A stretch of DNA of 64,000 nt from Deltaproteobacteria bacterium (GTDB lineage: Bacteria; UBA10199; JACPAL01; JACOUP01): the NCBI GenBank assembly GCA_016177765.1, contig JACOUP010000008.1, forward strand, positions 767,165-831,164, written 5' to 3'. Positions 4,701 through 8,319 of the stretch are shown here, in pieces; within the stretch, counting starts at the first letter, position 1, and each line of letters starts with the position of its first letter. Below the pieces are notes generated by a model, which was not told where the DNA came from, did no database searches, and saw only the letters and a program-made list of their open reading frames with translations. The position numbers were made by a program, and so were the translations under genes.

Positions 4701-6002
4701 GGGGGAGGGGATTCTTCCGCCCTGGTAACCAAGGTCTTGAGAGAGATCGAAGAACTGGCCCAGCGGGTAGAGTTGCCGAGGACAGACGATTCTAACGTGG
4801 CCTATGCCACCAGGGAATTCGAATTAAGCCGCGCCTTCTTAACGGATCTTCTTCAAGAAGCGCAGACCAATCCTGATACAGCCTTGGCGAGCCTCGTCCT
4901 TTCTGTCGCCTATTCGGTGGATCGTCAGAGGGATACCGTTGCTCTGCTCCGAGGAGAGGCAAGGACAACACCCTCTTTGTTGGTGACGCGTATGGATCAA
5001 AGACCGGTTGTGGAGACAAGGTCTTATGCTCGTTTATCGGATAATATTTTTTGGGATCGACGTCGCCTCAGTTATCTGGAAGGACGGTTAGCGGGAGGAG
5101 TTCCTGTCGAAGAACAGCGGTTTTTTGAAAACCAGAGGGATAAAGCAGGCTGGGATCTCGTCTCTGATCTTCGTGTCCTTATCAGAGAACACCGGGAGAA
5201 ACTGCTCGTCTCTGTTGAGGGAAGGGGCGCCTTGGATGGCCACCTCCGAGAATTTATTGCCGCTTTGGATCGTCACGTGGCGGTGCTCCGAAGGGTTCGT
5301 CCGCTCCTCGAAAAGGGGGATAGAGATCTCTTCAGAGGTTTCCCGAGTGGTCTTGCCGGTCTGGATCAGGAGTTGGCAGACTGCGCATTTGATCTTGAGA
5401 GGGCGAGGGGTTTGCTCGCCATTCTTCAGGATCCACCCTATGGCCCTGGTTCCCCTTCCACCCCGACTGCGGCAGGGGGTTCAGCGGCACCGGTGGCCCC
5501 TGCCTCGCCTGCGAGTCAAGGCGGGCCAGCAACTCCGGCCGCTTCGGCTAGTTCTATCGGTCCCGATGAATCGAATGTGAGCTATGATGTTGCCGCTTGG
5601 GCCACGCTCTGGGATGGGCTGGCTGCTGAGTCACCAGAGGTTCGTCAACGACTCAGGGTATTGACTCTTGGAGGTCCGGCGACAAGGGGTGAACTCTTGG
5701 CCGCCTATGGTGTTTCTGCCGATAAATTTGCCGCTGTTCGCGGTGGCTTGGCAATGGTAGATAACGGTTCTCTCGAGGTTGGCCTTCTCGCTCGTGACCT
5801 GGCGGCGGTGTTGGTGGCGAGCGGGTCTGACGCTGCGATGACACCGGCGGTTTTTGAACGGGCCGTTGTGAGGGGAATGAGACTCCTTGGTCCAGTCCCT
5901 GCCTCAGGGATTCCTGGCGAAGCGGGAGGTCGAGAGGGTCGTGAGCGGTTTGGTGAAAGAGGGGCTCGAGAACCACTCCCTGTCCGGGCGATTGTCCCCT
6001 AG
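1776..6002 (+). CDS. Very large unrecognised protein with an N-terminal alpha/beta-hydrolase-like domain
   Basis: About 1,408 residues; no family is recognised for most of it. Residues ~110-310 resemble an alpha/beta hydrolase: a nucleophile elbow LVTCSSSA (non-canonical, usually GxSxG), an acid in LAGDD and a histidine in GRQHEIFL, in the right order. The long middle is predicted helical and rich in Arg, Glu and Leu. Around residues 850-960 is a Pro/Gly/Ala-rich linker, followed by another helical region and a second low-complexity linker. No signal peptide or membrane segment is evident. The ATG at 1776 was chosen; a TTG at 1752 is possible and neither has a clear ribosome site. An internal ATG at 4413 has a strong ribosome site and may give a separate 529-residue product. 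Function unknown. Confidence 0.65.
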   Translation: MAGPGSIDPKAPTGSPPSVEDGDNDPSGFVELSPDPPSPGDHFLPVPDGVEVTLEDAPPVIPSGTGALLVGPTGEIIPAAPAVEEAIFEDGAGMQRGYFRFSPLSSSAGDIVVYLTGPDSHTDLSTHILIQTLTGAGFSTYTYIPPFSLDIDYHTGTLSRFLDRVRGENPGRRIHLVTCSSSAVIARRYLEESPAAVSSFVAVVPAFEITQEHAAAWERLGKPIPANIYSWPARPVETPALFILAGDDRSAINDRSLADLRDHFGGYRHHVVFPGRQHEIFLTDTGERRLAAMEVTAAVARFLLERPYEPEFPLTLHDGSGRNACFRQAITQRTQFWEGVAQIFQEVASGGIDLETAGAMFYEAHPDRAPLDRLPHYDPQGFGRLLREMMQRVDHTRYYLANTSETSRLEPSRLVERLDEIEHLLFDLANEAEIIFYGLSVYNISDATNGDRNRFFRVLHHVANILVNLVSENPEQVRNGFEQLPAVLVELRGVVGDLALVGDHAAVAVMGEGPLFPEGWSTQGDLHEEEKRVRAQLGERRALFRQVAMRRLQRFYWDHREVWPEAVRAKAAAIDRVVNHFLALQRKQDGLDVRGLVQRYLTAYPDVADYLQVTLDYYGATLNDLETLPMLLRIVIERYNTAATAIYGDITTMEHTPEETWQGLRVQVRAAAALLSLLDQIPPQEGLGNPTRVRPDILAVVRERLEAIRALIERRVLDQRPGPEPQTVYTWEEVTTLLSNLDQAWGEVVAAALLIDLSPELIARFESLRAHLGLMIAARGRYRSVSGTIHAVIYRLYTNLAELMRGAHQFPSVAGSSGAVGEEPVGERMMTEMERDLDLLDRTLAEPVSAAPAGDAERTQPLLGGADNAATGTDLKGGDMSVGTVAASLVGTSVVAQTAGNPPAGDGPVSEFPESREPAAPAGDAYLQPYVPPSFGGPERPEDYEGGGEIGERGFEPTPFFGASVVAAVRRLVARGGGDSSALVTKVLREIEELAQRVELPRTDDSNVAYATREFELSRAFLTDLLQEAQTNPDTALASLVLSVAYSVDRQRDTVALLRGEARTTPSLLVTRMDQRPVVETRSYARLSDNIFWDRRRLSYLEGRLAGGVPVEEQRFFENQRDKAGWDLVSDLRVLIREHREKLLVSVEGRGALDGHLREFIAALDRHVAVLRRVRPLLEKGDRDLFRGFPSGLAGLDQELADCAFDLERARGLLAILQDPPYGPGSPSTPTAAGGSAAPVAPASPASQGGPATPAASASSIGPDESNVSYDVAAWATLWDGLAAESPEVRQRLRVLTLGGPATRGELLAAYGVSADKFAAVRGGLAMVDNGSLEVGLLARDLAAVLVASGSDAAMTPAVFERAVVRGMRLLGPVPASGIPGEAGGREGRERFGERGAREPLPVRAIVP
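4404..4415 (+). promoter_or_regulatory. Strong internal ribosome-binding site and in-frame ATG inside the giant gene
   Basis: GGAGGAGAT directly precedes an in-frame ATG at 4413. This is a better Shine-Dalgarno than at either possible start of the whole gene, and it lies at the junction of the helical region and the low-complexity linker. It could yield a shorter product of 529 residues. Confidence 0.4.
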
Positions 6003-6406
6003 AGAGGGGACCCCAGAGAACCTTTCTGAATCTTTAGATCAGTATGCCTCGCAATATGGTTAAAATCTGAGTCATGATGAAACAGGGGCATCTTTGTCCT
6101 CATTGATAACTGCGCAATGAGACTGTCCACTGTTTTAGCTTCAACCCCTTTTTTTCTGAGATACCCTCTGAGCAATGCTGCTTCGAAGAAATCCTCTTTT
6201 TCTAGAGAGAGAAAAGGCAGGACAGAGAAGTGTTCTTTTAATACTTTGTATTCAGTGTTCCTCTCAGCACCTGAAAGGACCTCAGTAATAACTGGCCCAC
6301 AGGTTACCACTTGGTCTGCCTGAAGGAGTTCACTGATAATCTCGGCCGTGATAAGATCGGATTGATTAAGAAAATGAATCCATGAGGATGAATCAATCAG
6401 AATCAC
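5999..6406 (-). CDS. vapC: VapC-type PIN-domain toxin
   Basis: A PIN-domain ribonuclease of about 135 residues, the toxin of a type II VapBC module. The four acidic positions of the metal site are visible: the first Asp in LIDSSSW, Glu in VITEVL, Asp in TVDSLIAQ, and Asp in HHDSDF. Substrate RNA cannot be inferred. A GTG start at 6406 has AAAGGA six bases upstream and overlaps the vapB end by 14 bases; a TTG at 6421 is less likely. Tight overlap with vapB indicates translational coupling. The 3' end overlaps the end of the convergent giant gene by 4 bases. Confidence 0.88.
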   Translation of the reverse strand: MILIDSSSWIHFLNQSDLITAEIISELLQADQVVTCGPVITEVLSGAERNTEYKVLKEHFSVLPFLSLEKEDFFEAALLRGYLRKKGVEAKTVDSLIAQLSMRTKMPLFHHDSDFNHIARHTDLKIQKGSLGSPL

Positions 6407-6611
6407 GCCGCATCCTTTCAAGTTCCTTGAGTGTGAGAGTAAAATGAACCTTTCCCCCTAAACGGGCAAAGCTTTCAAGTTTCTTCTGCCTCAAAACGGT
6501 TTCAAGAGAAAGGACCACCGCCTCGGTATCCGTCTTGGCCTTGAGGATCTTTTTGACCTGGTTCAACTTGTCCTGCGGCAAGATAAATTGTTTTCGTCTC
6601 ATTTTAGCCAT
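6393..6611 (-). CDS. vapB: VapB-type antitoxin
   Basis: A 72-residue protein preceding the PIN toxin in the same operon. The N-terminal KQFILPQDKLNQVKKILKA and TDTEAVVLSLE segments fit a short DNA-binding antitoxin (ribbon-helix-helix-like); the C-terminal half would wrap the toxin. The start codon lies at the edge of a 28-bp palindrome that also holds the promoter, which suggests autorepression by the complex. No Shine-Dalgarno is present, so the mRNA may be leaderless. Role is assigned from position, size and partner. Confidence 0.82.
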   Translation of the reverse strand: MAKMRRKQFILPQDKLNQVKKILKAKTDTEAVVLSLETVLRQKKLESFARLGGKVHFTLTLKELERMRRDSD

Positions 6612-6646
6612 GTGTATATATTATAGTTTATATACACATCCGTCAA
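6611..6646 (-). promoter_or_regulatory. vapBC promoter within a palindromic operator
   Basis: TGTGTATATA (6611-6620) and TATATACACA (6629-6638) form a perfect inverted repeat with an 8-bp spacer. On the minus strand TTGACG (6646-6641) is the -35, and TATAAT or the overlapping TAATAT inside the palindrome is the -10. The -10 ends 6-8 bases before the vapB ATG, placing the expected transcript start at or next to the start codon. Confidence 0.7.
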
Positions 6647-6665: not shown

Positions 6666-6696
6666 GATCAGCCGGGGCCTAGAGCCCCGGCTGATC
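6666..6696 (-). terminator. Strong GC hairpin downstream of the small-gene operon
   Basis: GATCAGCCGGGGC and GCCCCGGCTGATC form a 13-bp perfect stem with a 5-base loop. It lies between the vapBC promoter and the end of the small minus-strand genes. The T-rich stretch is on the plus-strand side (GTTTTCCCC), so as a minus-strand terminator it lacks a U tract. Confidence 0.45.
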
Positions 6697-6877: not shown

Positions 6878-7072
6878 TTAGTCTCCTCCTTTCTTTGTTT
6901 TATTTTGCCGGTCACGGATATGGATCCGGCCATTGACCGGGATCGCATCCAGCACGACATTGATCGAGTTGTCCTTGTTGACAAACCCGATCCCGATCCG
7001 GGTCCAGAGGTTTTTCTCCTCGCTACCCCGCTCGGTAATCGTGTAGACATCTTTGAGATTTGTCTCTTCCAT
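6878..7072 (-). CDS. Small conserved-looking hypothetical protein (64 residues)
   Basis: An intracellular protein with the segments TITERGSEEKNLW, RIGIGFVNKDNSINVVLDA and VNGRIHIRD. It reads as a compact beta-strand fold without signal peptide or membrane segment. I recall similar short hypothetical proteins in deltaproteobacteria but cannot name a family. AAAGGAGGTTTCT gives an excellent ribosome site. It is first in a two-gene operon behind a sigma-54 promoter, so expression is probably conditional and needs an enhancer-binding activator, none of which is encoded nearby. Confidence 0.65.
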   Translation of the reverse strand: MEETNLKDVYTITERGSEEKNLWTRIGIGFVNKDNSINVVLDAIPVNGRIHIRDRQNKTKKGGD

Positions 7073-7100
7073 AGAAACCTCCTTTGTAAAAGGTTGCTAA

Positions 7101-7115
7101 GCAAGAGGCGTGCCA
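7101..7115 (-). promoter_or_regulatory. Sigma-54 (RpoN) promoter
   Basis: On the minus strand TGGCACG-CCTC-TTGC matches the -24/-12 consensus (TGGCACG-N4-TTGCW), with the invariant GG and GC separated by exactly 10 bases. Transcription would start near 7089, about 17 bases before the 64-residue gene and just ahead of its Shine-Dalgarno. Confidence 0.8.
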
Positions 7116-7120
7116 AATGG

Positions 7121-7285
7121 AAAAAACCAGGGAGGGGAGGGGTCTTGAGAAGTGGCTCTCGCAGACCCTCATCACCGTGCAGCCTTAGAATCATGAGGGT
7201 CGAGAGCGCAGGCGGACTTTTTGCGGCTGTGGGGCAAAAAGGACCGCCGGCAGTTCGAGAGACTTCTCCCCTCCCTGGTTTTTTT
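7121..7285. ncRNA. 165-nt structured element, candidate non-coding RNA
   Basis: A 17-bp perfect outer stem (7121-7137 with 7268-7284) continues through AGAAGT (7148-7153) with ACTTCT (7262-7267) and CTCTCG (7156-7161) with CGAGAG (7256-7261). It encloses two hairpins: GACCCTCAT/ATGAGGGTC (7164-7201) and GGCGG..CTTTTTGC/GCAAAAAG..CCGCC (7211-7248). Both ends carry A6/T6 tracts, so either strand could end in a terminator-like stem plus U tract. CTCTCG can instead pair with CGAGAG at 7201-7206, giving an alternative fold. Size recalls 6S RNA, but the fold is a three-way junction and I cannot assign a family. It lies between the prenyl synthase end and the sigma-54 promoter. Confidence 0.45.
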
Positions 7286-7304
7286 AGGGGGAACAGTTCG
7301 ATTT

Positions 7305-7321
7305 TCGAACCGTCGGTTCGA
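7305..7321. repeat. Short inverted repeat
   Basis: TCGAACC-GTC-GGTTCGA, 7-bp arms, lies between the structured element and the tandem repeat at the end of the prenyl synthase gene. No function assigned. Confidence 0.4.
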
Positions 7322-7325
7322 TTTT

Positions 7326-7355
7326 GCTACCGGCTCCGGTGCTACCGGTTCCGGT
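7326..7355. repeat. Two 15-bp tandem units across a stop codon
   Basis: GCTACCGGCTCCGGT and GCTACCGGTTCCGGT differ at one base, and each is internally near-palindromic (ACCGG..CCGGT). The TAG stop of the prenyl synthase (7344-7342) lies in the second unit, so the last residues of the protein come from the repeat. Confidence 0.6.
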
Positions 7356-8319
7356 CGATGACGTAATTGGCCAGCGCCGTCAGCGCCTCTTTTTCAATGG
7401 AAGGCTTAAAGAGGACCAGTTCCCCCTTGGCCCGTTCGACGTACCGTTTGGCCAGGTTCAGGGTGTAACTGATCCCGTCATATTTTTGGATAATACTCAC
7501 AATCTCCTTTAAATGCCCTTCCCCCACTTCCCGGGCGATCAGGGCATCTTTGATAATCCGGACCTCTTCAGACCGCGCCTTTTTGAGGGCGATAATCAGG
7601 GGCAGGGTCAATTTTCCCTCGCGGAGGTCGGTTCCTTTCAGTTTCCCGAATTTATCCTGTTCGCTCAAGTAGTCGAGGACGTCATCGGCCAGTTGGAAGG
7701 CGATTCCGAGAGAGAGCCCGTAATTCCTCAGGGCGACGGAGAATTCTTCAGAGATATTGCCAAGGATCGCCCCGACCTGACAGGCGGTAGCGATCAGAAC
7801 GGCGGTTTTATGGGTGACAATCTGCAAATAATCCTCTTCGTTGACATCCATGCTGTTGCTCTTCGCGATCTCCAGGACCTCCCCCTCGGTGGTTTCGATC
7901 ATCGCATCGGTCACCAGTTTCAGGATCTGGAGATTTTTGAGGGAGACCAGGATATCACAGGCCCGGCAGTAGAAAAAATCCCCAACGAGGACACTGACCT
8001 GATTTCCCCACCGGGCATTAGTCGAGACCTTGCCGCGGCGGAGTTCGGCGTTATCGATGACATCGTCATGAAGGAGTGAGGCGGTATGCATGAACTCCAG
8101 GGCGGCACCAGATTGGATCGCCGCCTCCCCCTGGGAACCGGCAATTCGGGCAGAGAGGAGGGTTAAGAGCGGCCGGAGCCTTTTTCCCCCGTTTTTGAGG
8201 ACATATTCGGTGACATGCCGGACAAAAGGGACGCTGGAATGGAGCTTCAGTTGCATCAGCTCTTCAACCTTTTCCAGCTCTTCCCGGACAGGGAGGGCAA
8301 TTGGGGCGAGTTCCATCAT
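7342..8319 (-). CDS. ispB: Trans-polyprenyl diphosphate synthase (IspB-like)
   Basis: Condenses farnesyl diphosphate with isopentenyl diphosphate units to make the long prenyl tail of respiratory quinones. The first Asp-rich motif is LLHDDVIDNAELRRG and the second is LADDVLDY; GGKRLRP binds substrate diphosphate. About 325 residues, typical for octaprenyl/heptaprenyl synthases. The residues before the first DDxxD are small, which suits long-chain products, though chain length cannot be read reliably. The ATG at 8319 is chosen; a TTG at 8367 would add 16 residues and run into the start of the divergent hydrolase. It ends inside a 15-bp tandem repeat. Confidence 0.88.
   Translation of the reverse strand: MMELAPIALPVREELEKVEELMQLKLHSSVPFVRHVTEYVLKNGGKRLRPLLTLLSARIAGSQGEAAIQSGAALEFMHTASLLHDDVIDNAELRRGKVSTNARWGNQVSVLVGDFFYCRACDILVSLKNLQILKLVTDAMIETTEGEVLEIAKSNSMDVNEEDYLQIVTHKTAVLIATACQVGAILGNISEEFSVALRNYGLSLGIAFQLADDVLDYLSEQDKFGKLKGTDLREGKLTLPLIIALKKARSEEVRIIKDALIAREVGEGHLKEIVSIIQKYDGISYTLNLAKRYVERAKGELVLFKPSIEKEALTALANYVIDRNR

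Follow-up and report, generated by a model that had tools for sequence, protein, structure and literature searches.

What is the long interrupted palindrome at positions 7121-7285 of the window, i.e., of the whole stretch of 64,000 nucleotides analysed here? A first-pass annotation had proposed a 6S-like or other regulatory RNA, or an upstream element of the adjacent sigma-54 promoter. The fold itself is far more stable than expected: the plus strand of positions 7110-7300 shows an MFE of -100.7 kcal/mol, compared to -67.55 (sd 4.69) for 200 dinucleotide shuffles, none of which is as good (z=-7.07; 0/200). The annotation was thus right that the stems are too long for chance. For the minus strand of the same segment, we obtain an MFE of -86.4 (z=-6.78).

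The whole element (7121-7285, plus strand) is Y-shaped, that is, a long outer stem (P1) closes a three-way junction with two hairpins (P2 and P3). P1 pairs a 5' arm at 7120-7146, which starts with an A tract (A6 at 7121-7126), with a 3' arm at 7259-7285, which ends in a T tract (T7 at 7279-7285), such that U tracts are possible on either strand, as had been noted before. The 27 unbroken pairs of the two arms are followed by a GA/GA internal loop (7147-7148 opposite 7257-7258; by eye kept in most relatives) and 3 further pairs, for which the earlier description as a 29-bp interrupted stem is about right. An inverted-repeat scan reports arms at 7121-7154/7251-7284 with 82% complementarity. The two internal hairpins of that description are present as well: P2 (7155-7207) combines a sequence-conserved base (GCTCTC/GAGAGC) with a 3-nt bulge, a variable distal stem and an apical loop, and P3 (7211-7248) combines a GGYGG/CCRCC base with a TTTTT/AAAAA stem and the loop GGCTGTGGG. 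All three stems, given here for the plus strand, are supported by the fold and by covariation.

The annotation had also suggested two exclusive folds, given that CTCTCG at 7156 can pair with CGAGAG at both 7201 and 7256. The three motifs are found at these positions and the alternative can form, but it is about 13 kcal/mol costlier (-87.4 kcal/mol with the 7156/7256 pairing forced vs. -100.2 with 7156/7201 forced). Furthermore, 7156/7201 pairs in 3/3 sequences, i.e., in the window copy and its two nearest relatives, whereas 7156/7256 is not kept in these two relatives. Since the alternative is both costly and not kept, the two folds do not represent a conserved switch.

With regard to relatives, BLAST identified one partial second copy in the home genome (75% over 97 nt) and, among 60 genomes, matches in two when counting the home genome, i.e., in one other genome. 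A covariance model built from three sequences (R1; the window copy and two BLAST relatives) matched 14/46 genomes of the class. A second model built from 55 members (R2; cut-off E<=0.001) matched 22/46 genomes of the phylum, where both selections comprise the same number of genomes. R2 copy numbers are 5 for the home genome, 65 for G014, 61 for G033 and 1 to 18 for the others. The weak R1 match L022 (G024) was not recovered by R2 and is excluded from it; L039 and L059 are also outside its training set. Within the window, the sole covariance-model match is located at 7137-7268 (142.9 bits).

Compensatory changes among relatives, which the first-pass annotation had suggested to look for, are indeed found. 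In the three first sequences, 97.7% of the cells are paired and 20/43 pairs are changed on both sides, while 7.0 are expected from shuffles. In the set of 55 members, of which 54 are distinct, standard pairs account for 94.6% of 2261 cells and double changes are observed in 42/43 pairs; for P1, 8/8 modelled pairs show changes on both sides across relatives. The respective covariation score is 0.826, compared to 0.185 for shuffled and 0.098-0.131 for alignments slid by 1-3 columns; the alignment was fitted to the model and is hence biased toward it, but the controls are far lower. That is, compensatory change supports one fold, as expected for a structured RNA family. Sequence conservation is patchy and confined to the base of P2 (CTCTCG/CGAGAG) and to the T/A stem within P3, while P1 and the distal part of P2 vary freely. 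For instance, L044, L016 and L047 of G014 share the outer stem and P3, and the P2 stem of L044 is entirely different from that of L016 and L047, yet still well paired. The fold of 7121-7285 is real and strongly selected.

A pattern scan identified 43 stretches in the genome collection and 3 in viral contigs (46 loci in total). Of these, 38 were passed to R2; the other 8, all from G014 contigs, were not. R2 confirmed 22/38 loci with 30 matches; one of these 22 loci (L137, in G039) belongs to the home phylum. The confirmed loci include Harrisonbacteria, Liptonbacteria, Parcubacteria, an Omnitrophota bin, and bins of 0.6-1.1 Mb. The 16 unconfirmed loci, among them all three Dadabacteria loci, Salinicola and Caballeronia, were dropped; 0/3 pattern matches in viral contigs were confirmed by the model, and plasmids gave no match. 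All 14 genomes that entered via loci outside the phylum search are positive with 1-16 copies each (14/14), where each was picked for having a match and one, G072, carries Deltaproteobacteria in its title and could thus be a member of the home phylum. Copies from other phyla, referred to as type II, carry AGCTTGGT plus a mini-hairpin at the P2 tip and CGCTGGA as P3 loop.

Judging from their neighbourhoods, the copies are dispersed. Their size ranges from about 130 to 280 bp across the family. The window copy lies between a prenyl synthetase gene (PF00348) and a small ORF without family match, another copy lies between YifB/comM and an aminotransferase gene, and further copies are found among many other genes. 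Spread is recent in G014, where near-identical 283-bp units (identity up to 95%) occupy four unrelated sites and units of about 178 bp occupy three. Among the close pairs in the matches listed, 11/12 are head to head (-/+), the exception being L131.

The fate of individual copies can be followed in the sister Patescibacteria genomes G063 and G065. Seven copies are at orthologous places, where 25/985 element bases differ vs. 21/894 flank bases and 0/17 listed changed stem pairs are compensated. This comparison indicates no local constraint on individual copies. Because the recent changes between orthologues are uncompensated, an instant arm-to-arm correction as the origin of the perfect stems is unsupported. 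At one further site, flanks with 94-99% identity enclose different elements. At two sites, G065 carries a palindrome of 26-28 nt where G063 has a whole type II element, and both exchanges are located in the P2 arm, i.e., at the hairpin tip, of a larger relative on the opposite strand. In this comparison, sites turn over between sister genomes and whole elements are exchanged with short palindromes at hairpin tips. None of the orthologous sites seen was free of an element; both exchanges at tips relate a short palindrome to an element, such that either direction is possible. Elsewhere, a deletion between short repeats has removed 51 nt from the copy in G065. No target duplications were seen by eye.

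Elements nested in the P2 arm of a relative on the opposite strand ('type III') are also seen at L108, L191, L192, L193, L195, L204 and L209. Such arrangements are mostly missed by R2, and their alternative tip is a shared perfect palindrome (CCCAGCCAGTCCATGGACTGGCTGGG). Independently, G063 contains a palindromic insert of another kind, A/T-rich and about 143 bp long (L231:13011-13153), where G065 has 7 bp instead; by this comparison, the insert is a separate small mobile element.

The surroundings of the window copy bear on the promoter proposal. The element abuts a sigma-54-type promoter TGGCACGCCTCTTGCT (7100-7115, minus strand; score 26.5/26.5 for the consensus as generally known), and across the element from it we find the palindrome pair GTTCGATTTTCGAAC (7296-7332, plus strand; identified from genome repeats), a proposed activator site. 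Neither is part of the element. In minus-strand order, the palindromic site is followed by the element, the promoter and the small ORF. The GTTCGATTTTCGAAC palindrome occurs at about 8 places in the home genome, usually beside a sigma-54-like promoter and often doubled at a spacing of about 20 bp. These sites precede Y1 transposase ORFs (3 checked via Pfam), a ComEC-like hydrolase, a YifB/ComM ORF and small ORFs. Taken together, the sites (7296-7332 of the window; L066-L072) look like a single regulon of a sigma-54 activator that links DNA uptake with transposases. Elsewhere in the window, the minus-strand ORF 5999-6421 resembles by eye a PIN-domain toxin and is preceded by a short antitoxin-like ORF, as in VapBC systems (5999-6640 in total), and a perfect 13-bp inverted repeat with a 5-nt loop, possibly a terminator, is located at 6666-6696.

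Four explanations compete with mobility. 6S RNA is a long hairpin of similar length, and a long hairpin with U tracts is what the segment presents; a three-way junction is not the fold known for 6S. Unlike 6S RNA, the Y-shaped element has such a junction, occurs in many copies per genome and has no Rfam match. The 6S-like RNA of the first-pass annotation finds no backing in the covariance search, since at the gathering score no Rfam family, 6S included, was found in the window, in 16 loci of relatives or in 19 loci of other phyla (tRNA and rRNA only), and a permissive scan of 7050-7360 yielded chance matches only, without 6S. We regard 6S RNA or any other known Rfam family as a negligible prospect. 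The element could also serve the sigma-54 promoter as a DNA spacer or architectural part that separates the -24/-12 box from the activator site. In favour of this, 3/5 home-genome copies are located between a GTTCGATTTTCGAAC palindromic site and a sigma-54-like promoter. However, other activator-site/sigma-54 pairs of the home genome have no element, and for the remaining 2/5 copies as well as the copies examined in other genomes, the best promoter scores (16.5-21.5) stay below the 95th percentile of the background (22.55), such that sigma-54 as a general partner is rejected outside the home genome. Given that the link is seen in 3/5 home-genome copies and in no other genome examined, it looks like an insertion site rather than a function. 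The adjacency stated by the annotation stands; the spacer looks like a tolerated landing place for the element, and we consider a promoter part very improbable.

A multicopy structured non-coding RNA family that acts as RNA, e.g., as trans-acting sRNA or mRNA-stability element, has more in its favour. One strand folds slightly better than the other: the core model columns show 92 GU/UG pairs vs. 24 AC/CA mismatches, which favours the plus strand, although this count is biased toward the strand on which the model was built. The GA/GA loops are kept on that strand. A strand-neutral count gives GU:AC ratios of 9:5 for the outer stems of 32 elements and 13:9 for P2 of 41 elements, and GU pairs make up about 2-3% of all pairs in this count, which is low for an RNA family. 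The complementarity of P2 and P3 loops exceeds that of shuffled partners (10.98 vs. 10.04, sd 0.23; 0/1000), a hint of a P2-P3 loop-loop contact from a shuffle that ignores relatedness. On the other hand, orthologous copies are not preserved between G063 and G065, and scoring of the region immediately upstream of the window copy, on the strand of the element, revealed no sigma-70-like promoter. A regulatory RNA of this very locus, as the annotation had considered, is weakened since relatives lie beside unrelated genes, reach up to 65 copies per genome and drift like their flanks when orthologous. Overall, we rate the RNA family as rather unlikely; the acting molecule may be either folded ssDNA or RNA. 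A large intrinsic terminator, or a 3'-end element belonging to the upstream gene, would fit the window copy, in which a T6 tract closes the arm on the prenyl synthetase strand, as well as the copies of other phyla, which often begin 12-100 bp past a stop codon on the antisense strand. Based on gene calls that comprise long ORFs only, 12/13 copies of other phyla (Patescibacteria and similar bins) are antisense to both co-directional neighbour genes, but orientation is even in the home phylum (19 sense-sense and 15 antisense-antisense copies, with one locus, L013 = L137, counted twice). In addition, many outer stems have no T tracts and a terminator does not need the conserved three-way core, which leaves this explanation improbable.

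No mobilising enzyme was found in searches that covered Y1 transposases. Y1 transposases (PF01797) are encoded in 38/46 genomes without tracking the copy number of the element: G033 has 61 copies and 0 Y1 genes, while G004 and G044 have 10 Y1 genes each and 0 copies. Likewise, a search at E<=1 found 0 elements in 25 loci (20 Y1 loci and 5 activator-site loci of the home genome). RAYT, i.e., a REP-type tyrosine transposase, is therefore rejected as mobiliser based on counts and neighbourhood. An autonomous partner sharing the ends was not found in a search covering Y1 transposases, and the genes between two copies at L051 and L020 have no Pfam match and thus provide no evidence for an autonomous transposon.

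We consider it probable that the Y-shaped element is a non-autonomous, non-coding mobile element, about 130-280 bp long, and that selection acts on the shape adopted by a single folded strand. We infer that this folded strand is recognised and that the element inserts at hairpin tips. Arms that are free in sequence and bound to pair close a conserved core, which comprises the three-way junction, the GA/GA loop, the CTCTCG/CGAGAG base of P2, and P3 including the T/A stem. A putative enzyme acting in trans would recognise the folded single strand, either as ssDNA exposed at replication or DNA uptake or as an RNA copy, and would place the element at new sites, often the tips of existing hairpins. 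In this view, the unique outer stem would partly represent the target hairpin; the arms of the window copy (A6...CCAGGGAGGGG/CCCCTCCCTGG...T7) resemble a split bidirectional terminator, a look shared by this copy and a few others. The window copy would have inserted between the activator site and the sigma-54 promoter, i.e., in a spacer that may tolerate an insert because activation acts at a distance. The antisense bias in other phyla (12 vs. 1) counts against the mobile-element reading, since random insertion does not explain it. The same holds for the failure to find a mobilising enzyme, element-free orthologous sites or target duplications, and for the small number of copies that suggest a terminator in the outer stem.

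A wider claim is conceivable but considerably more doubtful, namely that the family represents a new cross-phylum class of mobile elements that is defined by a one-strand three-way-junction fold (ssDNA or RNA) with sequence-free stems, uses hairpin tips as landing sites, stacks on its own copies and on host hairpins such as terminators, and is moved by a putative enzyme. If true, an elaborate fold with varying arms, present in several phyla and with module swaps at tips, would point to a mobilisation system that reads shape, present in bacteria which have received little study and are for the most part uncultured. The family provides a concrete substrate for seeking the mobilising enzyme, and G063 and G065 already give sites for following turnover.

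No description of this Y-shaped hairpin family appeared in the result listings of open-access literature searches, and it is apparently undescribed. Bacterial interspersed palindromes are usually either MITEs, whose ends are fixed, or short hairpins linked to REP transposases. A further point of reference is provided by integron attC sites, which act as a folded single strand that retains its structure while the sequence may vary. The Y-shaped element likewise keeps its structure with free sequence; unlike attC sites, it shows no conserved R boxes noticeable by eye, and its copies are single or in head-to-head pairs rather than in cassette arrays.

According to the account in PMC3733652, REP/BIME with RAYT, i.e., the GTAG and CGTC families, are dispersed intergenic palindromes with lineage-specific expansions, form head-to-head dimers with spacers of mostly 20-100 bp, and in case of the CGTC REPs 'apparently lack a dedicated transposase'. 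As far as this account goes, the Y-shaped element is similar in being dispersed, intergenic, arranged head to head and expanded in certain lineages, while REPs are single hairpins of 20-40 bp and the Y-shaped element is a three-way junction of 130-280 bp with a conserved core and freely varying paired arms. Size and fold of our copies differ from a 20-40 bp hairpin with a GTAG or CGTC tag (the tag judged by eye), and no cognate tyrosine transposase gene flanked by the repeat is observed given the 25 loci and the copy counts. CIR repeats of Caulobacter and Brucella, in the description by PMC2229807, are intergenic with a GANTC motif and form two arms in the predicted RNA, joined by a linker; as described there, they have two arms like the Y-shaped element, but no long closing stem. 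ERIC/IRU (127 bp), YPAL/RU-2 (168 bp), RUP and NEMIS are treated as bacterial MITEs in the respective accounts (PMC2229807; PMC2759123). In the features described there, they resemble the Y-shaped element in size, intergenic location, non-coding nature, pairing of 5' and 3' ends and mobility by inference. As general background, the ends of these MITEs are known to be conserved in sequence, whereas those of the Y-shaped element vary freely with pairing alone kept, and this in several phyla. In the broad sense of a MITE, the Y-shaped elements are non-coding, multicopy and dispersed with terminal inverted repeats, and mobile DNA of a broadly MITE/REP-like kind, but with a new architecture, is the best reading of the family.
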